Source of the DNA: Haladaptatus halobius
GTDB lineage: Archaea; Halobacteriota; Halobacteria; Halobacteriales; Haladaptataceae
Assembly (NCBI RefSeq): GCF_020618475.1
Contig: NZ_CP085335.1
Coordinates: 186,001-250,000 of the forward strand
Direction of reading: 5' to 3'
Length of the DNA: 64,000 bases
How positions within the stretch are numbered: position 1 is the stretch's first letter; the number at the start of each line of letters is the position of its first letter. A model generated the notes under the pieces. The model did no database searches, was not told the DNA's origin, and saw nothing but the letters and a program-made list of their open reading frames with translations. This document shows, one piece after another, positions 53,356 through 63,435 of this stretch. Both the position numbers and the translations under genes were made by a program.

Positions 53356-53787
53356 ATGAGCGTTGAGCTTCCGTTTGCGCCGGTCGACACGATCATCCGA
53401 CGGAACGCGGGCGACCTTCGAGTGAGTGCGGGTGCTGCCGAAGAACTCGCGCGTCGCATCCAAGTTCACGGGGCTGACTTGGCTGAGGACGCCGCGAAGC
53501 AGGCGACGGCGGACAGACGGAAGACGCTGATGGCCGAGGATTTCGGCGTCCAGCAGGTCGTCGATAAGGACAACCTCACCCTGCCGGTCGCGCCGGTCGA
53601 CCGCATCGCTCGTCTCGACATCGATGACGATTATCGCGTCGCCATGGACGCGCGAATCGCGCTGGCGGACATCCTCGAAGATTACGCCAACAATGTCGCG
53701 TCGGCAGCGGCGATACTCGCACACCACGCAGACCGGCGAACGGTTAAGGGCGAAGACATCGAGACCTACTTTAGGCTGTTCGAATGA
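53356..53787 (+). CDS. doublet histone (two histone folds in one chain)
   Basis: A 143-residue haloarchaeal histone with two tandem histone folds. The first is about residues 3-65 (LPFAPVDTIIRRNAGDLRVSAGAAEEL) and the second about 75-143 (LPVAPVDRIARLDIDDDYRVAMDARIAL). Each has the core helix-strand pattern (RRKTLMAEDF and DRRTVKGEDIETYF at the ends). The fusion forms an internal dimer. It is acidic, as expected for a high-salt cytoplasm. The stop overlaps the deacetylase start by 4 bases. Confidence 0.93.
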   Translation: MSVELPFAPVDTIIRRNAGDLRVSAGAAEELARRIQVHGADLAEDAAKQATADRRKTLMAEDFGVQQVVDKDNLTLPVAPVDRIARLDIDDDYRVAMDARIALADILEDYANNVASAAAILAHHADRRTVKGEDIETYFRLFE

Positions 53788-54800
53788 AGTTCGGCTACAG
53801 CGAAGTCTGCTTGGCACACGACACGGGCAAGCGCCATCCCGAGAACCCGGATCGCCTCCGCGCGATTCGGAAGGCGCTCACGCGTAAGCACGGCGTCGAG
53901 TACGTCGAAGCCGACTCGGCGACGGAATCCGAGGTCACCGCCGTCCACGACGCGGGCTACGTCGACGAGTTCCGCGAGTTCTGCGCGAGCGGCGGCGGAA
54001 ACTGGGATCCCGACACGGTCGCCGTCGAGGAGACGTGGGACGCCGCGCTCGAAAGTGCTGGACTAGCGTGCTGGGCGGCGGACGCTGCGCTAGCGGGCGA
54101 AGACGGACGCCAGACTCCCTTCTCGCTCGGCCGCCCGCCGGGGCATCACGCCGTGGCCGACGACGCCATGGGTTTCTGCTTCTTCAACAACGCCGCCGTC
54201 GCGGCCCAGTTGGTCATCGACGCAGGCGACGCCGAGCGAGTCGCCATCCTTGACTGGGACGTTCACCACGGAAACGGCACGCAGGACATCTTCTACGACG
54301 ATGAAGACGTGTTCTACGCCTCGATACACGAAGATGGCCTCTACCCTGGCACGGGCGAAATCGACGAGTCGGGGATGGGCGACGGAAGGGGGGCGACGCT
54401 CAACGCGCCGCTTCCGGCGGGGTCGGGCGACCCGGAGTACCGCACCGTCTTCGACGAACTCGTCGCGCCCGCTTTCGCCGCGTTCGACCCGGACTTAGTG
54501 CTGGTGAGCGCGGGGTTCGACGCCCACCGTCATGACCCCATCTCGCGGATGCGCGTCTCGACGGACGGGTACGGCATGCTGACGGCGCGCGTTCGGGAGA
54601 CGGCTGACGAGGCGGGGGCGGCCCCCGCCTTCGTCCTCGAAGGCGGGTACGGACTCGACACGCTCTCGGACGGAGTTGCGATGGTTCACGAGGTGTTCGA
54701 CGGAATGGAGCCGGTGGTTTCCGAGGAAGAGGCGAACGAGGACGTGCTAGAACTCGTTTCGGGCGTGCGTGACTCACACCCGCTCTTGGATTCGGCTTAG
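53784..54800 (+). CDS. histone deacetylase family protein
   Basis: A 338-residue class II HDAC / acetoin-utilisation-type enzyme. The active site shows the paired His in GRPPGHHAVADDA, zinc ligands in LDWDVHHGNGTQDIFY and the later Asp in VSAGFDAHRHDPI, and GGYGLDTLSDGV follows. Overlap with the histone gene (ATGA) indicates translational coupling. Whether it removes acetyl groups from the histone or from small polyamines is not known. Confidence 0.93.
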   Translation: MKFGYSEVCLAHDTGKRHPENPDRLRAIRKALTRKHGVEYVEADSATESEVTAVHDAGYVDEFREFCASGGGNWDPDTVAVEETWDAALESAGLACWAADAALAGEDGRQTPFSLGRPPGHHAVADDAMGFCFFNNAAVAAQLVIDAGDAERVAILDWDVHHGNGTQDIFYDDEDVFYASIHEDGLYPGTGEIDESGMGDGRGATLNAPLPAGSGDPEYRTVFDELVAPAFAAFDPDLVLVSAGFDAHRHDPISRMRVSTDGYGMLTARVRETADEAGAAPAFVLEGGYGLDTLSDGVAMVHEVFDGMEPVVSEEEANEDVLELVSGVRDSHPLLDSA

Positions 54801-55247: not shown

Positions 55248-55256
55248 TTTATATTT
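55248..55256 (+). promoter_or_regulatory. promoter of the glycan operon
   Basis: TTTATATTT lies about 45 bases before the first gene's ATG (55297), so transcripts would have a 5' leader of about 20 nt, unlike the leaderless pattern common here. This is the only promoter evident for the four coupled genes. Confidence 0.5.
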
Positions 55257-55296: not shown

Positions 55297-56475
55297 ATGA
55301 GACAGGAATCACAAAGCGTCTCTGCAGCGGTGTTGCACGACCGATTCCCCGGAATCGGGGGCGGAGAGCAGTTCGCCATCGAGGCGGCACGCGTGCTCGA
55401 CGCGCCGATGTACACGATGTACGTCGCCGAAGGCGTCGAACTTCCGGACGACGTTCGAGTCGTTCCGATACGACAGGAGAAGTACACTCGGGGTGTCTCC
55501 GGGCGGTTCCTCGAATGGAAGAACGAGGGGATGAACCCCTTGGAGACGCTGTCAGTCGCGCTAGACATGACGGACGCCCACGACGAACTGGCGGGGTACG
55601 ACGTGCTCGTCGAGAGCGCCCCTCTCTCGAAGTCCTACGTCCCGCAGGTCGGGCAGACGGTGCTTCACTATCCACACAGCCCGCCGCGGTGGCTCTACGA
55701 CCTCTACGGCGAGCGTCTCTCGGCGTTCGATTACCCCGGCGTTCAGTTCGCGTTGAAGGCGTACGCGAAGGGGTGGCGCGCGCTCGACAAAGAGGCCAAC
55801 GACTACGTCGACCGATTCGTCGCCAACAGCGAACTCGTCCGCGACCGCGTCCAGCGGTACTACGACCGGGACGCCGCCGTCATCTATCCGCCGGTGACCG
55901 GCGAGTGGCGCGACGAGGGCGACGACGGCTACTTCGTGACGTGGTCGCGCCTCGCCCCCGAGAAGCGGATCGATCTCGTCATCGATGCGTTCACAGACTT
56001 GGACGAACGCCTCCTCGTCGTGGGCGACGGCGAGGAACGCGAGAAACTCGAACGGAAGGCCCGAGGGAACGACAACATCGAGATGCGCGGATACGTGGAG
56101 CGTATCGAGGACGTGGTCGCCCGCGCCACTGCCATCGTGTACGCGCCCAAAGACGAGGATTTCGGCCTCGTCGGGGCGGAGGCGCTGTCGGCCGGAAAAC
56201 CCCTCATCGGCGTGAACGAGGGTTACACCCGCCAGCAGGTCGTCGAAGGAACGACCGGCCTCCGATTCGAACCGACCGTCGCGTCGCTGCGGGATGCCAT
56301 CGACCGATTCGACCCGCACGACTTCGACGCCGCCGAGATTCGGCGATTCGCCGAACGGTACGACAGGACGACGTTCGCGGATAGCCTTCTGAACCTCGTC
56401 AACAGGACCCACGCGGAAGCCGCCTCGAAGCGCTCCGCGGTCGACAATGATACGGAAACCGTACGAATCCGCTGA
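55297..56475 (+). CDS. GT4-family glycosyltransferase
   Basis: A 392-residue GT-B enzyme. The N-terminal acceptor-binding domain begins AAVLHDRFPGIGGGEQFAIEAA. The C-terminal part has FVANSELVRDRV, the donor-binding SRLAPEKRIDLVIDAF and the catalytic-region PKDEDFGLVGAEALSAGKP. It would transfer a sugar from a nucleotide or lipid donor in surface glycan synthesis at the cytoplasmic face. The next gene overlaps its end by 29 bases. Confidence 0.9.
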   Translation: MRQESQSVSAAVLHDRFPGIGGGEQFAIEAARVLDAPMYTMYVAEGVELPDDVRVVPIRQEKYTRGVSGRFLEWKNEGMNPLETLSVALDMTDAHDELAGYDVLVESAPLSKSYVPQVGQTVLHYPHSPPRWLYDLYGERLSAFDYPGVQFALKAYAKGWRALDKEANDYVDRFVANSELVRDRVQRYYDRDAAVIYPPVTGEWRDEGDDGYFVTWSRLAPEKRIDLVIDAFTDLDERLLVVGDGEEREKLERKARGNDNIEMRGYVERIEDVVARATAIVYAPKDEDFGLVGAEALSAGKPLIGVNEGYTRQQVVEGTTGLRFEPTVASLRDAIDRFDPHDFDAAEIRRFAERYDRTTFADSLLNLVNRTHAEAASKRSAVDNDTETVRIR

Positions 56476-57118
56476 GCCTCGCGTCTCGGTCGTGATTCCG
56501 ACCCTCCCGGCGAACGACCACGACCGGGTGGTCGCCGACCTCCGCGAACAGACGACGCGCGACTTCGAGGTGCTGGTGGTGGACGACGCGAGCCTCGACA
56601 TCTGTGAGGCGCGAAACGCCGGTATCGAGGCCGCGAGCGCCGACGTGGTGGCGCTCACCGACGACGACTGTCGCCCTCCGCCGGAGTGGGTGGCTCGCGC
56701 CGACGAGGCGCTCTCGGACGATGCCGTCTGCGTCGAAGGGCGCGTCGAGGGGGGACGAACCTACCGCGGCGAAGGGAAGTACGTCGGCTGTAATCTCGCG
56801 TTCGACCGCGAGACCGCCCTCGCCGCCGGCGGATTTCGGAGCGAGTACGCCGGATGGCGCGACGACACCGAGTTCGGGTGGCGCATGGAAGAGTCCGGCC
56901 CCTGTCGCTACGACCCGAATCTGGTGATGTCCCACCCCGACCGGACGCGCGCCAGCATCGACGACGAGAAGGAGGCGCGCCTGCGACGCGAGTACCCGAC
57001 CCGCTACGAGGAGCGAATCGTCCCGGATACGACGCTCGGGTGCGTCAACGACTGGCTCTGGCGACGGGGGTTCTGGGACGCTATCGACAGGGTACGCTAC
57101 CCCGGGGGGAGTCGATGA
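56447..57118 (+). CDS. GT2-family glycosyltransferase
   Basis: A 223-residue GT-A transferase. The N terminus RVSVVIPTLPANDHDRVVADL is the family start, then VLVVDDASLDICEARNAGIEAA and the Asp-rich DVVALTDDDCRPP (metal-binding). Compared with full GT2 members it is short. The start at 56447 overlaps the GT4 gene by 29 bases, and the stop overlaps the sulfatase-like start by 4. Confidence 0.88.
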   Translation: MIRKPYESAEPRVSVVIPTLPANDHDRVVADLREQTTRDFEVLVVDDASLDICEARNAGIEAASADVVALTDDDCRPPPEWVARADEALSDDAVCVEGRVEGGRTYRGEGKYVGCNLAFDRETALAAGGFRSEYAGWRDDTEFGWRMEESGPCRYDPNLVMSHPDRTRASIDDEKEARLRREYPTRYEERIVPDTTLGCVNDWLWRRGFWDAIDRVRYPGGSR

Positions 57119-58416
57119 AGGTCGCGCTCGTCGTCCTCGACACCCTACGAAAGGACGCCTTCGACGAGCAATTCGACTGGCTCCCCGGCCAGCGGTTCGA
57201 GAACGCCTACTCCACGTCCCACTGGACCGTCCCGGCCCACGCCTCCCTATTCGCGGGGAAGTACGCGAGCGAACTCGGCGTTTACGCCGGAGCGCAACTG
57301 TTCGACTGTCCGGAACCGGCGCTCGCCGAGTCGTTCAGGGACGCGGGCTACACGACCCGCGCGTTCAGCGCGAACGTGAACGTCTCCCGGCCGTTCGACT
57401 TCCACCGCGGCTTCGACCAGTTCGAAGGGAGTTGGCGGCTTCGGGCGCTCTCCGAGAACGTCTTCGACTGGGACGGCTTCATCGCCGAGACGCGGGAGAT
57501 GGGACCGGAACGCTACCTGTTCGCCCTACGCGACGTGCTCGCCGGCGACAGCGATACGATCCCCTCGCTCAAACGCGGCGCGCTGCTCAAACTCCGCGAT
57601 CTGGGCTGGGGTCGGACGACCCGCGACGACGGGGCGACCGAGGCGCTCCGATTCGTCCGCGAAACCGACTTCGGCGACGACGAGTTCCTGTTCGTCAACC
57701 TGATGGAAGCGCACACGCCCTACGCCCCGCCCGAGGAGTACCGGACGGTCGAACCGCCCGAACTGAACGGGTTGCGGGCGACGCTCGACGCGCCGGACGC
57801 CGACCCGGACAGGATTCGGCGAGCGTACCGGGATAGCGTCTGCTACCTCTCCGACGCCTACCGCGCCATCTTCGCGGAACTCCGCGAGGAGTTCGACTAC
57901 GTCGTCACCCTCGCCGACCACGGCGAGGCGCTCGGCGAGTACGACGCGTGGGAGCACCTCTGCGGGCTGTACCCCGACGTGACGCGAATCCCGCTCTGCG
58001 TCTGGGGTGACGGACTCGACGGAACCCGCGACGAGACGGTGAGCTTACTCGACGTTCACGGGACGATGCTGGACATCGCCGACCTCGACGCCGAATCGCG
58101 GGGGCGATGCTTGCTCGGCAGGTTGGACGAAAGGTCCTGGCTGGCGGAGTACCATGGCCTGACGAACCGCCACCGAACGTCGCTCGCCGGGGACGGCTTC
58201 GACACCGCACCGCTCGACGCCGAACTGCACGCACTGGTCGCGCCGGGCTACTACGGCTGGGAGACGCCGGATGGCTTCCGCGAACTAGGCGAAATAGACA
58301 AGCCGCGCGAGCGAATCGAAACGCTCGTGAACCGACTCGAACGGAGAGCGGTCGAGAACGACGTGGCCGTCTCGGAGGCCGTCGAGAACCAACTCCGGGA
58401 CTTGGGCTACGCGTGA
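57115..58416 (+). CDS. sulfatase / alkaline-phosphatase-superfamily protein
   Basis: A 433-residue cytoplasmic-type protein with the metal-binding start VALVVLDTLRKDAF, a nucleophile region STSHWTVPAHASLFAGKYASELG (Thr in place of the Cys/Ser of true sulfatases) and TLADHGEALGEYDAWEH. It is like the enzymes that transfer or remove sulfate or phosphoryl groups on glycans. No signal peptide is present. It is coupled to the gene before (ATGA) and the flippase after (GTGA). Confidence 0.85.
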   Translation: MKVALVVLDTLRKDAFDEQFDWLPGQRFENAYSTSHWTVPAHASLFAGKYASELGVYAGAQLFDCPEPALAESFRDAGYTTRAFSANVNVSRPFDFHRGFDQFEGSWRLRALSENVFDWDGFIAETREMGPERYLFALRDVLAGDSDTIPSLKRGALLKLRDLGWGRTTRDDGATEALRFVRETDFGDDEFLFVNLMEAHTPYAPPEEYRTVEPPELNGLRATLDAPDADPDRIRRAYRDSVCYLSDAYRAIFAELREEFDYVVTLADHGEALGEYDAWEHLCGLYPDVTRIPLCVWGDGLDGTRDETVSLLDVHGTMLDIADLDAESRGRCLLGRLDERSWLAEYHGLTNRHRTSLAGDGFDTAPLDAELHALVAPGYYGWETPDGFRELGEIDKPRERIETLVNRLERRAVENDVAVSEAVENQLRDLGYA

Positions 58417-59870
58417 GCGAAGCGGCGGGCATCAGCCTCAGCAAGGAGACGCTGGGCGGAACGGTCGCCCAGTTCACGATGGCGGCCATCGGGTTCGCCG
58501 GGACGGTCATCTTCGCGCGGTGGCTCGGCCCGAGCGCGTTCGGGGGTGTCTACCTGCTGTACGCGCTGGCGAAGCTCGCCGATCGACCGATGAACGGTTG
58601 GTCGCTGGCGGCGAAGAAACGCCTCTCCGAGTCCGACGCGCTCCGGCCGCCCGCGTTCGGAGCGCAACTGCTGTTCGACGCCGGCTGGGTCGTTCTCGCG
58701 TGTGTCGCCGTGTTCGCCGCCGCAGACGCCCTCCGGGGGTACACGAGACTCGCGGCCGCCCCCCTCCTGCTCGTCCTCCTGCTCGCCACCGAATCGGCGT
58801 ACGAGACCGTCGACAGCCTCGTCCAAGGTCGCGGGCGAATCAGCGCCGCGACGTGGATAGATACTGTTCGGTCGGTGCTCACCCTCCCGCTTCAGATCGG
58901 CTTCGTCTGGCTCCTCAGCACCGCCGGAACGGTCGCCGCCGCCGGGATGGTATACGGACTCGCGGCCGCCTCGGCGCTGACGTTCCCCCTCGCGGCCGCG
59001 TTCGTCGGGGTTCGGCCCGCACTCCCGTCAGGCGCGTTCGTCCGGAGCCTCGCCGACTACGCTCGGTACAGCATCCCGACGACGGCGTTGGGGACGACAT
59101 ACGACCGCCTCGACGTGCTCCTGCTTGGCTTCCTGCTCGCGCCCGCCGCGGCCGGGTTCTACGAGGTGGCGTGGAAGCTCACGCTTCCGGCGGTGTTTGT
59201 CGCCGACGTGGCAGGGCGCGGACTGATGGCGGCGGTGAGCGCCCGCAGGGCGCAAGGTGCGAGCGTCGGGCGGGACGTATCGAACACCGTCGCCTACGCC
59301 GGGGTGCTCGCGTTTCCCATCTTCTTCGGGGCGCTCGCACTGTCCGAATCGCTCGTCGTGACGGTGTACGGACCGGCGTATCGGGAAGCCGCCCTCCTGC
59401 TGGTCGGGTTGGCCGGTTATCGCGTCGTCCGCACGCAGAGCGGTCCGCTCCTCCAGGCGGTCAACGGCTTGGACAGACCGGATATCGCCATGCGGCTCTC
59501 CGCGGTCGCGGTGGCCGCGAACCTCGTTCTCGGCGTCCTGCTCACGCTACGATTCGGCCCCATCGGCGTCGTCGTCGCCACGCTGGTCGCGGAGACGCTC
59601 CGGTATCTCGGTACCCTCCTGTTCCTCCGGCGAACGGTGTCGGGGTTCGTTCCCGTCTCGCGTCCAATGGTCGCCCAAATCGGGGCGAGCCTCGTCATGT
59701 TCGTCGTCGTGTCGACGGCTCACGCCTCGCTCCCCATCCGGTCGTGGGTCGACCTCGCGGTGCTCGTCTCGCTCGGCGGGGTCGTCTACATTGGTGTCCT
59801 CCTCGCCGCGAGTCCGGAAACCAGACACACGCTCGACGAGGCGGTTCGCGGAACGTTCGCCTCGCCCTGA
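58413..59870 (+). CDS. oligosaccharide flippase (MOP superfamily)
   Basis: A 485-residue membrane protein with 12 to 14 predicted helices, starting SEAAGISLSKETLGGTVAQFTMAAIGFAGTVIFARWLGPSAFG, the classic Wzx-like N terminus. It would flip lipid-linked glycans to the outside of the membrane. A GTG start overlaps the sulfatase-like stop by 4 bases. With the two glycosyltransferases it makes a short glycan-export operon. Confidence 0.9.
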   Translation: MSEAAGISLSKETLGGTVAQFTMAAIGFAGTVIFARWLGPSAFGGVYLLYALAKLADRPMNGWSLAAKKRLSESDALRPPAFGAQLLFDAGWVVLACVAVFAAADALRGYTRLAAAPLLLVLLLATESAYETVDSLVQGRGRISAATWIDTVRSVLTLPLQIGFVWLLSTAGTVAAAGMVYGLAAASALTFPLAAAFVGVRPALPSGAFVRSLADYARYSIPTTALGTTYDRLDVLLLGFLLAPAAAGFYEVAWKLTLPAVFVADVAGRGLMAAVSARRAQGASVGRDVSNTVAYAGVLAFPIFFGALALSESLVVTVYGPAYREAALLLVGLAGYRVVRTQSGPLLQAVNGLDRPDIAMRLSAVAVAANLVLGVLLTLRFGPIGVVVATLVAETLRYLGTLLFLRRTVSGFVPVSRPMVAQIGASLVMFVVVSTAHASLPIRSWVDLAVLVSLGGVVYIGVLLAASPETRHTLDEAVRGTFASP

Positions 59871-60485: not shown

Positions 60486-60953
60486 ATGGCTACCAATCCC
60501 GCAGACTACGACCTGCACGAGCTTCGCAGGATGGCCGACGAGGACGAGGAGGCGCTCAACCTCTCCGCGGGGGGCGACGGGCGAACGGCAGAAGACCTCT
60601 ACCGACTGGGCCAGCGCGAGGAGCTACTGAAACTCCAGACGAAGCTGCTGGCATCCGGGTCGCTTCCAGAGAAACACTATCTGACGGCGCTTCCGAACCG
60701 GTAAGGTGCCGAGGTCATTGTCTTCGAGTGGCTCGATTTCCTCATCGAGAAAGCCGGATTCGAGAACACCGGAAACGCGCTCTCGTACTACGAGGACGTG
60801 GACTGGCTGAGCGAAGCGGCCTACGAGAGCCTCCGGTCGTACATGTACGGGTTCTCGGAGGCAGATCGGTTCAGAGCGACCGGCCCCGCCGACCTCGATA
60901 CAAACGATCACGTGTTGAGTCTCGTCTACATCGCCCAGCTCGCGTTGCTGTAG
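60486..60953 (+). pseudogene. FlaD/E-domain (archaellum accessory) gene with in-frame TAA
   Basis: The frame starts MATNPADYDLHELRRMADED, and the FlaD/E domain begins KHYLTALPNR. TAA at 60702-60704 (codon 73) then falls where the family has Tyr (LPNRYGAEV). The same frame resumes at once with GAEVIVFEWLDFLIEKAGFEN and runs to a normal stop at 60951-60953. One TAT/TAC-to-TAA change accounts for the break. FlaD/E (ArlD/E) proteins link the archaellum motor to chemotaxis. No other arl or che gene is nearby, so this was a stand-alone copy. Confidence 0.75.
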
Positions 60954-61913
60954 TCACTCCGCGTAGCCGAGGTTTCGCAGCCTGTCTTCTATCACGTCGT
61001 CGGTCATCTCCTCGCGCACCTCCGGCGACTCCGCCGTCACGTCGCGTCGCTCGTCCGCGTCGATTTCGGCCCATGGCACCTCTATCAGTTCGCGTTTGTG
61101 GAGTCCGCCGGGATGTCCGTAGGTTCGCATCGGTATCGGATACGTTCGCTCGCCGATGAGGTTACCGTGGTCGGCCGTGACGACCGACTTCCCCGGCAGT
61201 TCCGCGACCAGTCGTTCGACGTGCGGGAGCGTCACGTCTAGATTCTCGACGTAGGCCTCGATTATCGCCGACCTGTTCGTCGTCTCGCCGTACAGCAGGG
61301 CGTTCCACGGGTGCGGCTCGCCGCTGTGTTCGTCCGCGTCGAGCTGCATCTCGATGCCCGCGTGGCCGAGCTTCCGACCCTTCTCGCCGATGAACGGGAA
61401 GTGCGGCTGCATGAAGTGCGTGATGATGCGCTTGTCCGGATACTTCTCGAACGCCGTGAGCGTCCGTTCGACCATCGTCTCGGGCATAACCGTCCGGAAC
61501 TCCTCGTTCCAGTGATCGTCTAACAGGTTGACGACGGCGTGGAACGTGCCGTCGGGGAGTTTGTGGGCGTGCGGGTTCGACGTGACGTACACCGTGTCGT
61601 GGAGTTCGCGCCCGACGAAACTCTCCCGCATGAACTCCCAACTCTCGCTCCCCGGCGAGAGCTTGCTCGTCACTCGGTCGCCGAAGTTCGCCCGCGTGGC
61701 GAACATGTCGTACCGGCAGGCGTCGAGGATGACGAGGTTGTCCCACTCTTCTGCCATCACGTCTACGCGCTCCTCGTCGTTCAACAGCCGAGAGACGTAG
61801 GCGTTCGCCCGCAGCGCGTCCTTGCGCAGTCGTCGCGTTTCCCCGCGAACTAGAGATGGATCTTTGAGAACTCGAAGGGCGTTCTGGAGATTGTACCGAC
61901 CCCGAATAGACAT
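60954..61913 (-). CDS. sulfatase-like / alkaline-phosphatase-superfamily protein
   Basis: A 319-residue protein. It starts MSIRGRYNLQNALRVLKDPSLV, and the metal-binding Asp lies in NLVILDACRYDMF, with ITHFMQPHFPFIGEKG and VTADHGNLIGERTYPIPMRTYGHPGG. It resembles the sulfatase-type haloarchaeal family often near glycan genes. A first ATG at 61934 would add seven residues. It abuts the FlaD/E gene end to end (convergent), and may work with the glycan operon upstream. Substrate unknown. Confidence 0.8.
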   Translation of the reverse strand: MSIRGRYNLQNALRVLKDPSLVRGETRRLRKDALRANAYVSRLLNDEERVDVMAEEWDNLVILDACRYDMFATRANFGDRVTSKLSPGSESWEFMRESFVGRELHDTVYVTSNPHAHKLPDGTFHAVVNLLDDHWNEEFRTVMPETMVERTLTAFEKYPDKRIITHFMQPHFPFIGEKGRKLGHAGIEMQLDADEHSGEPHPWNALLYGETTNRSAIIEAYVENLDVTLPHVERLVAELPGKSVVTADHGNLIGERTYPIPMRTYGHPGGLHKRELIEVPWAEIDADERRDVTAESPEVREEMTDDVIEDRLRNLGYAE

Positions 61914-62124
61914 ACCGGAACGCTCTACCGCCACCGCCTTATTTATGGCCTGTTTAAAGGCTCAGCGTCCGGGGAGTAGAGCGGGAACGTCGGACTCGTG
62001 GCTCGGTCTCCCGGCAGTTCTCCCCTCCCGACAAGTTCCGTCGACACAGGGTTTCGAAGGGGTCGAACGTCGCCCGGCCACCCACTCGCCGCCGCGCCGA
62101 ATCGACCAGCGGTTCGACCGCCGG

Positions 62125-63435
62125 CTACCCGGCGATTCGAACTTCGGTACGAGTAACCTCGTCTATCTGGTCGGCTCTGACCGGATACGTGTCCTCGTCG
62201 TGCTCCTCGATACCGAGTTCTGCCTTGACGCGGTCGGTGAAACTGGGGTTGGGGTCGACGTAGATGGTGTCCCCTTCGACTTCGGCGACCATGCCGATCT
62301 TCTCGCCGTCGCGGTTCACGACGTTCTTCCCAGTGTCACGGTTGTTGAGGGAGACGGCTTCGCTTTCGGTTTCCGTCGCTCCTTCCATCTCCGCGGTCTC
62401 GGTTTCGGTCGTCTCCGTCTCCATCGTCTCGTCCTCCGTCATCTCCGTCTCGGTCGTCTCTTCGACGACCGTTGATTCGGTCGTCCCCGTGACCACTTCG
62501 GAGCCGAACTCCCGCTCGACGTACTCGGCATCGACGATATCGCTCTCGACGAGGTCGGAGGTCGCCGTCGTACTCTCGATGACCTCGCTCTCGGTCAAGT
62601 TGTAGACGTTCTCGACTCGGTCGACGATCTCGTCCTCGACGAGTCGTCGCTCGAACAACAGGCTCTCGATGATCCGGCCTTCCGTGAACTCGCTCTCGAT
62701 GTGCCCCGCTTCGATGGCCTCATTGACCGGCATTTCGCCGAAGAGGTCGCTCTGTAGGAGCGTTCGTTGGACGCCTTCGATGTCGACCACGCTTTCGAGC
62801 GAGTCCTCTTCGAGAACGTCGCGCTCGGCGACGTCGACGTCGACGACCTCGCTCTCGATTCGCTTGCGCTCCACGACCTCGCGGCGCACCAGACGCGTCT
62901 CGTCGAATTCGAGGACGAGGGTGTCGTCGTCGACGAACTCGGGTTCGGTGTCGGTCAGTTCGCGCCGGATGAGTTCGGTGTCGATGATTCGGTCGGCGAC
63001 GATTTCGGAGTCGACGACTTCGCTCTCGATGGTCTCGGTTTCGACGATTTCGCGCTCGATGATGCGAGTCTCCGTGATTTCGCTCCTGACGGTCTCGCCG
63101 TCCAACAACGCCTGTTCGACCTCGGCGTTTTCGAGCGTCGCCCGCTCCGCGACCTCCGAGCGCGGGACGACCTCGTACCGTTCCGCCTCCTCGTCCGTCG
63201 CCGGATACCGGATGACCGCCATCTCCTCGTCGTCGAACGTTTCGAGGAACTCCTCCCACTCCGCCTCCTCTACCTCTACGTCGGCGTGTCGCTCAGGCGA
63301 GTAGGCGAACGGCGACCGCGTCTCCGCGTCGGTTCGGTACGCGGGCTGCCAACCGCTCTCGTCGGCCCACGTTCTAATGGTCTCTCGGTCAGTCGTGATG
63401 CGCGTCTCGCCAGTCGTTTCTGGATTCTCAGACAT
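62125..63435 (-). CDS. acidic pentapeptide-repeat-like protein with C-terminal PRC-barrel-like domain
   Basis: A 436-residue very acidic protein. Residues 1-115 are a small domain (WQPAYRTDAETRSPFAYSP). From about 120 to 315 the sequence has a period of five residues with pattern S/T-E/D-I/V/L-V/I-E/D. Examples are SEVVD, SEIVA, DRIID, TELIR and later SDLVE, SDIVD, AEYVE. A Thr/Glu-rich linker (320-360) follows. The last 75 residues are a PRC-barrel-like domain (GKNVVNRDGEKIGMVAEVEG) homologous to the small genes at 6767, 45811 and 46140. The five-residue period suggests a beta-helix. Function unknown. Confidence 0.75.
   Translation of the reverse strand: MSENPETTGETRITTDRETIRTWADESGWQPAYRTDAETRSPFAYSPERHADVEVEEAEWEEFLETFDDEEMAVIRYPATDEEAERYEVVPRSEVAERATLENAEVEQALLDGETVRSEITETRIIEREIVETETIESEVVDSEIVADRIIDTELIRRELTDTEPEFVDDDTLVLEFDETRLVRREVVERKRIESEVVDVDVAERDVLEEDSLESVVDIEGVQRTLLQSDLFGEMPVNEAIEAGHIESEFTEGRIIESLLFERRLVEDEIVDRVENVYNLTESEVIESTTATSDLVESDIVDAEYVEREFGSEVVTGTTESTVVEETTETEMTEDETMETETTETETAEMEGATETESEAVSLNNRDTGKNVVNRDGEKIGMVAEVEGDTIYVDPNPSFTDRVKAELGIEEHDEDTYPVRADQIDEVTRTEVRIAG

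Follow-up and report, generated by a model that had tools for sequence, protein, structure and literature searches.

What does a sulfatase-like protein do in a glycan operon that lacks the oligosaccharyltransferase AglB? The question is raised by a stretch of 64,000 nucleotides from Haladaptatus halobius (contig NZ_CP085335.1, positions 186,001 to 250,000; hereafter the window), in which four + strand genes at 55297-59870 encode, in that order, a GT4 and a GT2 glycosyltransferase, a protein of the sulfatase fold and a flippase of the MOP superfamily. This operon is a paralogue, long diverged and lacking AglB, of the haloarchaeal agl block for N-glycan assembly, and its third product is, as judged from its sequence, a threonine-type enzyme and not a formylglycine sulfatase. 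In the explanation that we find best overall, with a probability of roughly 55%, this protein works in the cytoplasm and modifies a lipid-linked glycan with sulfate, or a related group, before the glycan is flipped. The operon is composed as follows.

55248-55256, + strand: TATA-box-like stretch TTTATATTT, 5′ of the first ATG, read by eye and unscored; probable operon promoter
55297-56475, + strand: GT4 glycosyltransferase, 392 amino acids (aa); Pfam PF00534 Glycos_transf_1, 5.6e-21
56447-57118, + strand: GT2 glycosyltransferase, 223 aa, without hydrophobic segment; Pfam PF00535 Glycos_transf_2, 3e-12
57115-58416, + strand: alkaline-phosphatase-superfamily, sulfatase-like protein, 433 aa; Pfam PF00884 Sulfatase, 1.5e-20
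58413-59870, + strand: MOP-superfamily flippase, 485 aa, GTG start, 10 hydrophobic segments; Pfam PF13440 Polysacc_synt_3, 1.2e-11

A preliminary description of the window had read these genes as one glycan-assembly unit coupled end to end. The gene content bears this out: open reading frame coordinates agree with overlaps of 29 bases (GT4/GT2), 4 bases (GT2/sulfatase-fold) and 4 bases (sulfatase-fold/flippase), and Pfam supports each class. What we take to be an EX7E-type motif was picked out by eye in the GT4. The AglG model matched the GT2 weakly (2.9e-8, far under its cut-off), and no NCBIfam equivalog scored above cut-off for any of the operon proteins. The ratio of nonsynonymous to synonymous substitution rates (dN/dS) was 0.12-0.17 for all four genes in comparison with Haladaptatus litoreus (locus L049), 0.12-0.26 across every operon gene in pairwise comparisons with loci L049-L052 (GT4, 0.12-0.22), and 0.12-0.20 for the three genes that are intact in the closest relative, Haladaptatus salinisoli (L048), whose sulfatase-fold protein is 94% identical. 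The operon genes evolve under purifying selection and, since dN/dS is low in all four, they are real genes and not chance frames.

As the preliminary description had stated, no oligosaccharyltransferase lies nearby: no match over the AglB model cut-off was found at the operon locus. The host genome (7.28 Mb, nine contigs) has a single AglB match over this cut-off, on contig C1 at 1598904-1601615, 1.35 Mb from the operon. Directly upstream of this gene, and arranged as in the operon, are a GT4 (68% identity to the operon gene), a GT2 (59%), a sulfatase-fold protein (58%) and a flippase (53%). The AglB-linked block spans about 1.598-1.609 Mb on C1 and differs from the operon in possessing, besides AglB, an AglJ gene (453 bits, cut-off 325) on the opposite strand, 1.3 kb past the GT4, and, behind AglB, a gene resembling undecaprenyl-phosphate translocases (PF04018). 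Because the same four-gene set occurs in order upstream of the host's own AglB, we consider the operon an AglB-less agl paralogue. Compared with an agl N-glycosylation cluster, it has the glycosyltransferases and a predicted lipid-linked-glycan flippase and lacks AglB. The target of export, which had been called unclear, is thereby less so, since the only AglB over cut-off adjoins the paralogous block.

The operon is not unique: agl-type blocks are widespread, and it is one of them. Ninety-four genomes carry a strong match to the sulfatase-fold protein (E 1.8e-67 or better). For 80 of them, with related species counted separately, up to about four scored matches per genome and an AglB match present in 79/80, 47 of the 110 matches listed (E 4.7e-93 or better) fell within 30 kb of AglB, in 42/80 genomes; our own estimate puts the number due to chance at about two, related species not being independent. 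Of 20 fetched loci, five of them from the host genome, 7 had the full four-gene set (L078, L083, L084, L085, L086, L089 and L091), with AglB inside the fetched piece for 4 of the 7. Some AglB neighbourhoods also harbor members of another sulfatase-fold subfamily, roughly 360-390 aa long and marked by the motif T-x-G-[ST]-F-P (L083, 12192; L087, 8250; L106, 10154; L116, 5406), and several sulfatase-fold enzymes can therefore coexist in one cluster.

In a tree of 39 distinct proteins, the operon copies formed one clade (100/100), nested in a 35-row group (96/94) together with all 19 rows labelled AglB-linked; the tree did not settle where exactly the clade sits within this group. A recent duplication of the Haladaptatus agl block was not supported. 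The operon protein is 62% identical to its relative in L083, from another family, vs 58% to its own AglB-linked copy, and the split of the operon from the agl block is therefore old. The AglB-adjacent second copy was also observed in 6/9 Haladaptatus.

The glycan might alternatively serve a product that does not involve AglB, for example a glycolipid, another surface glycan or a unit of an exopolysaccharide, and be attached by a transferase of its own; this is compatible with any reading of the enzyme. It would fit the position of the operon copy, at least 0.8 Mb from AglB (linear contig distance) in 10/10 genomes, nine Haladaptatus and one Halomicrococcus, and the presence of a second, distantly AglB-like protein in a separate surface-glycan cluster (L119/L120, C4:205000-241900). 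This protein of 982 aa (25% over 420 aa, under the model cut-off) is a candidate second oligosaccharyltransferase, as judged by its sequence. Nevertheless, all four operon genes are paralogous to the AglB block, and we regard a separate target as possible but less likely than not. The C4 cluster also holds a flippase-like protein (by eye), another sulfatase-family gene and a relative of the window gene at 60954, described below.

We then turn to the enzyme itself. A structural prediction of the active-site threonine and metal ligands, suggested in the preliminary description, returned a sulfatase fold (predicted local distance difference test score, pLDDT, 87.5). The best PDB row for the model was 6HHM, the S1_7 ulvan sulfatase (Z 33.6, root-mean-square deviation 3.8, 348 aligned; rows within 1 are tied), and the top rows listed were hydrolases. 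Aligned with choline sulfatase (6FNY/7PTH), Thr38 falls at Cys54, the nucleophile position, His42 at Arg58, Asn87 at Lys102, Asn89 at His104 and His281 at Lys309, and the pair Asp268-His269 matches Asp296-His297. According to the available text on choline sulfatase, Cys54, as fGly54, acts as nucleophile and is, with Asp14 and His297, a ligand of the metal; departure of the leaving group is aided by His201-Lys309; and activity was under the detection limit for the Lys102 mutant and much weakened for the His104 mutant (PMC5870055). In a structure alignment of 34 proteins, Thr38, His42, Asn87, Asp268, His269 and His281 were invariant in 34/34 rows, and the Asn89 position was Asn in 25/34 rows and His in none.

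The operon protein thus has the fold of class I sulfatases (PF00884, 6HHM) and their Asp-His pair, in contrast to the C/S-x-P-x-R nucleophile and the catalytic Lys and His, which it lacks. The genome gave no PF03781 match for the formylglycine-generating enzyme (FGE) at E 1e-5, in a search that matched 4/14 control genomes and left anSME-type maturases outside its range. A survey of the 22 sulfatase-family genes of this genome found a T/S-x-P-x-H motif in 11, the Cys motif in 3 and neither in 8. Since neither the formylglycine Cys nor the catalytic Lys is retained, the name ‘sulfatase’ is probably wrong for the operon protein. Family members found in plasmid records were labelled ‘sulfatase-like hydrolase/transferase’ in 5/6 cases, the sixth being unannotated.

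The preferred explanation, transfer of a sulfo group in the cytoplasm, builds on gene content, coupling, selection, conservation, paralogy, fold and the loss of the sulfatase catalytic residues. The GT4 and GT2 would add sugars to a dolichol- or polyprenol-phosphate-linked precursor on the inner face of the membrane; enzymes from other loci, AglJ being one example, would do the priming. The soluble sulfatase-fold protein would then pass a sulfo group to a sugar hydroxyl via Thr38 and a bound metal, the MOP flippase would move the charged glycan outwards, and it would be attached by the one AglB, from its locus at a distance of 1.35 Mb, or by another transferase. We infer from these data that transfer is cytosolic, that sulfate is the group moved, that the steps follow in this order and that AglB acts in trans.

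That Halobacterium makes sulfated N-glycans has been known for decades. Their sulfotransferases were first named in 2025, according to the available text (PMC11980604). In the Halobacterium (Hbt.) salinarum agl cluster, soluble Agl31 (VNG1057C) and membrane Agl30 (VNG1056C) sulfate the N-linked tetrasaccharide, as shown by deletion and by expression in Haloferax (Hfx.) volcanii, and the study detected no sulfating role of a third protein, VNG1063H; Agl31 is assigned there to an arylsulfatase family, with 6HHM as best DALI match (PMC11980604). Likewise, the operon protein has a sulfatase/alkaline-phosphatase fold, is Sulfatase-type by its Pfam assignment and belongs to an agl-type gene set. A simple hydropathy scan detected neither a signal-like nor a transmembrane segment in it, consistent with the preliminary description, which had found no signal peptide; Agl31 is soluble and cytosolic. 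Both proteins share a C-terminal LGY, encoded within LEELGYT by the Agl31 primer in the available text (PMC11980604) and invariant in the operon family. In contrast to the cluster of Agl30/Agl31, the operon has no adjoining AglB, and the function of its sulfatase-fold protein is predicted. The precedent and the absence of a transmembrane segment support, as a reading, the earlier proposal that the enzyme modifies the glycan inside the cell before export. Such modification had been called unusual, which the AglB linkage in 42/80 genomes among the matches listed and the Agl30/Agl31 precedent in the available text (PMC11980604) do not support.

Several results nevertheless weigh against sulfate transfer as we picture it. 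The Agl31 quantitative PCR primer was found in 0/26 genomes of Halobacterium's family, and none of 13 Halobacterium genomes (including Halobacterium sp. DL1, Hbt. hubeiense and Hbt. noricense) had a strong match to the operon protein (best E 1.3e-32). Twelve AglB neighbourhoods of this family, chosen regardless of sulfatase-fold genes, contained just distant relatives (24-31%); at least one relative of the sulfatase fold or the 60954 type was located near AglB in 9/12 of these genomes. Another genome of the family (L095) has a 47% relative close to AglB. The short Agl31 primer peptides picked out no clear ortholog. Since Halobacterium genomes hold only distant relatives, Agl31 is more likely a cousin than an ortholog of the operon protein. 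In addition, three of the five paralogues of the operon protein in the genome (on C5, C7 and C8) have no GT4, GT2 or flippase relatives in 19 kb. Finally, the GT4 of H. salinisoli (L048, 9125-9355) is an in-frame deletion remnant of 78 codons with intact downstream genes, and at least the GT4 is therefore dispensable there.

The sulfate donor adds to these difficulties. Among 392 Halobacteriales genomes, adenosine phosphosulfate (APS) kinase was recognised in 32 and ATP sulfurylase PF01747 in 12, and the CysD model in 0/392, for which archaeal forms may be too divergent. Neither a recognisable ATP sulfurylase nor an APS kinase occurred in 82/94 strong-match genomes. A link of the family to phosphoadenosine phosphosulfate (PAPS) was not borne out: the association with APS kinase was weak and not significant (12/94 with a strong match vs 20/298 without, Fisher p 0.08), and that with ATP sulfurylase was absent (2/94 vs 10/298, p 0.74). 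Hfx. volcanii, one of 14 control genomes, gave no match for APS kinase, PF01747 or CysD, and it still supports sulfation by Agl30/Agl31 according to the available text, in which neither PAPS nor any other donor is mentioned (PMC11980604). Either the activating enzymes are too divergent to be recognised, or the donor is other than classical PAPS; which sulfate donor serves genomes of this kind is a question that the family raises. More tentatively, and with a low probability, the threonine-type sulfatase-fold enzymes might form a large haloarchaeal class of PAPS-independent cytosolic glycan sulfotransferases acting via sulfo-threonine, the operon being a stand-alone cassette for a second sulfated glycan. 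The host genome does have an APS kinase: at L118 36-2352 (C8, about 36-38 kb) it adjoins a canonical sulfotransferase (PF13469/PF00685) and is fused to a cytidylyltransferase-like domain, and the pair may form a PAPS module that is complete in itself and does without an ordinary ATP sulfurylase.

The missing sulfate-activating enzymes keep alive another chemistry, in which the operon protein is a cytosolic phosphotransferase of EptA/LtaS-like type and adds a phosphate-containing group to the lipid-linked glycan. The EptA/MCR phosphoethanolamine transferases use a Thr nucleophile and are membrane-anchored; EptA and LtaS have membrane domains and work on the outer side of the membrane, which counts against this alternative. 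The operon protein belongs to the same alkaline-phosphatase superfamily, with Thr at the nucleophile position, and its profile matches EptA (5FGN, 2.1e-7; 4KAV, 8.2e-8) and, more weakly, MCR domains, a further point against sulfate transfer. The model of the 60954 protein moreover matches EptA/MCR as well as sulfatases. However, the profile match of the operon protein to EptA/MCR is weaker than that to sulfatases, its sequence and model are closer to sulfatases and phosphonate monoester hydrolases, it has no N-terminal membrane domain, and the studied agl-cluster proteins of this fold sulfate, according to the available text (PMC11980604). A phosphotransferase is in our view unlikely.

Slightly less likely still is a hydrolase (sulfatase, phosphodiesterase or phosphatase) that would trim or edit the lipid-linked glycan or a nucleotide sugar in the cytoplasm. 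The hydrolases at the top of the structural rows listed and the three paralogues that stand apart from GT4, GT2 and flippase relatives could point this way. Against this, the formylglycine Cys and Lys102 are replaced and no FGE match was found, and trimming before flipping would be less expected in an assembly operon. An ordinary exported sulfatase was rejected because of the active-site residues together with the lack of a signal-like or transmembrane segment and of an FGE match.

Conservation across Haladaptatus revealed a further component. The GT2, sulfatase-fold and flippase genes are kept at 10/10 loci (9/9 sampled Haladaptatus and the Halomicrococcus). The GT4 is whole in the window, L049, L050, L051 and L052, is reduced to a remnant in L048, and could not be seen at L020, L021, L023 and L026, where flanks were 1.5 kb. 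At 8/10 loci (L020, L021, L023, L026 and L049-L052) an extra gene of ~300-320 aa lies between the GT2 and sulfatase-fold genes; at L049 and L050, the loci read completely, short overlaps couple it to its neighbours. This fifth gene belongs to the family of window gene 60954. Only the operons of the window and H. salinisoli are without it, and their compact layout of four genes is therefore probably a derived state. The second sulfatase-like gene noted in the preliminary description is real:

60954-61934, - strand: second alkaline-phosphatase-fold protein, 326 aa (ATG at 61913 likelier), outside the operon; model pLDDT 86

Pfam gave no match for this protein. Its model shows the core of the alkaline-phosphatase superfamily, and among the structural matches EptA (Z 15.1) tied with sulfatase 6HHM (Z 14.6). 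Position 91 is Ser/Thr in 23/23 rows of the family, at a helix start, and is its probable nucleophile in the model. The VNG1063H primer in the available text encodes VHYFQPH in one frame, which fits the H-Y-M-Q-P-H motif of the family (PMC11980604). This short peptide alone suggests that VNG1063H is of the 60954 kind, and primer-encoded peptides alone led us to infer the same for VNG1056C.

Among the matches listed in the openly licensed literature, no publication on the operon or on AglB-less copies of the block was found. What is new here is the conserved, AglB-less and unlinked state of the operon, its fifth gene, and the active-site and donor evidence against a sulfatase identity. A widespread threonine-type sulfatase-fold family is now tied to agl blocks, and the label ‘sulfatase’ appears to serve such proteins poorly. 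Haladaptatus, which has a pair of paralogous blocks and, in one species, a GT4 deletion of natural origin, would be a good system in which to separate their roles.

Some minor observations concern the paralogues and the surroundings of the operon. The three paralogues apart from glycosyltransferase genes (L080 on C7, L081 on C5 and L082 on C8; 47-49% to the operon protein) lie in lower-GC stretches, and two of them have another sulfatase-family gene nearby. At 53360-54800 (+ strand) of the window, the gene for a double histone-fold protein (by eye) overlaps a histone-deacetylase-family gene (PF00850, 9.9e-90) by four bases, an order repeated upstream of the operon in L051 and L052. At 62125-63435 (- strand) is encoded a 436-aa acidic protein rich in E/V/I repeats, with no Pfam match at E 0.01. 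Finally, the window copy of a FlaD/E-type archaellum-protein gene at 60486-60953 (+ strand) is interrupted at 60702-60704, where a stop codon lies in frame; the gene is intact in L048 (PF04659, 2.9e-26) and L050.

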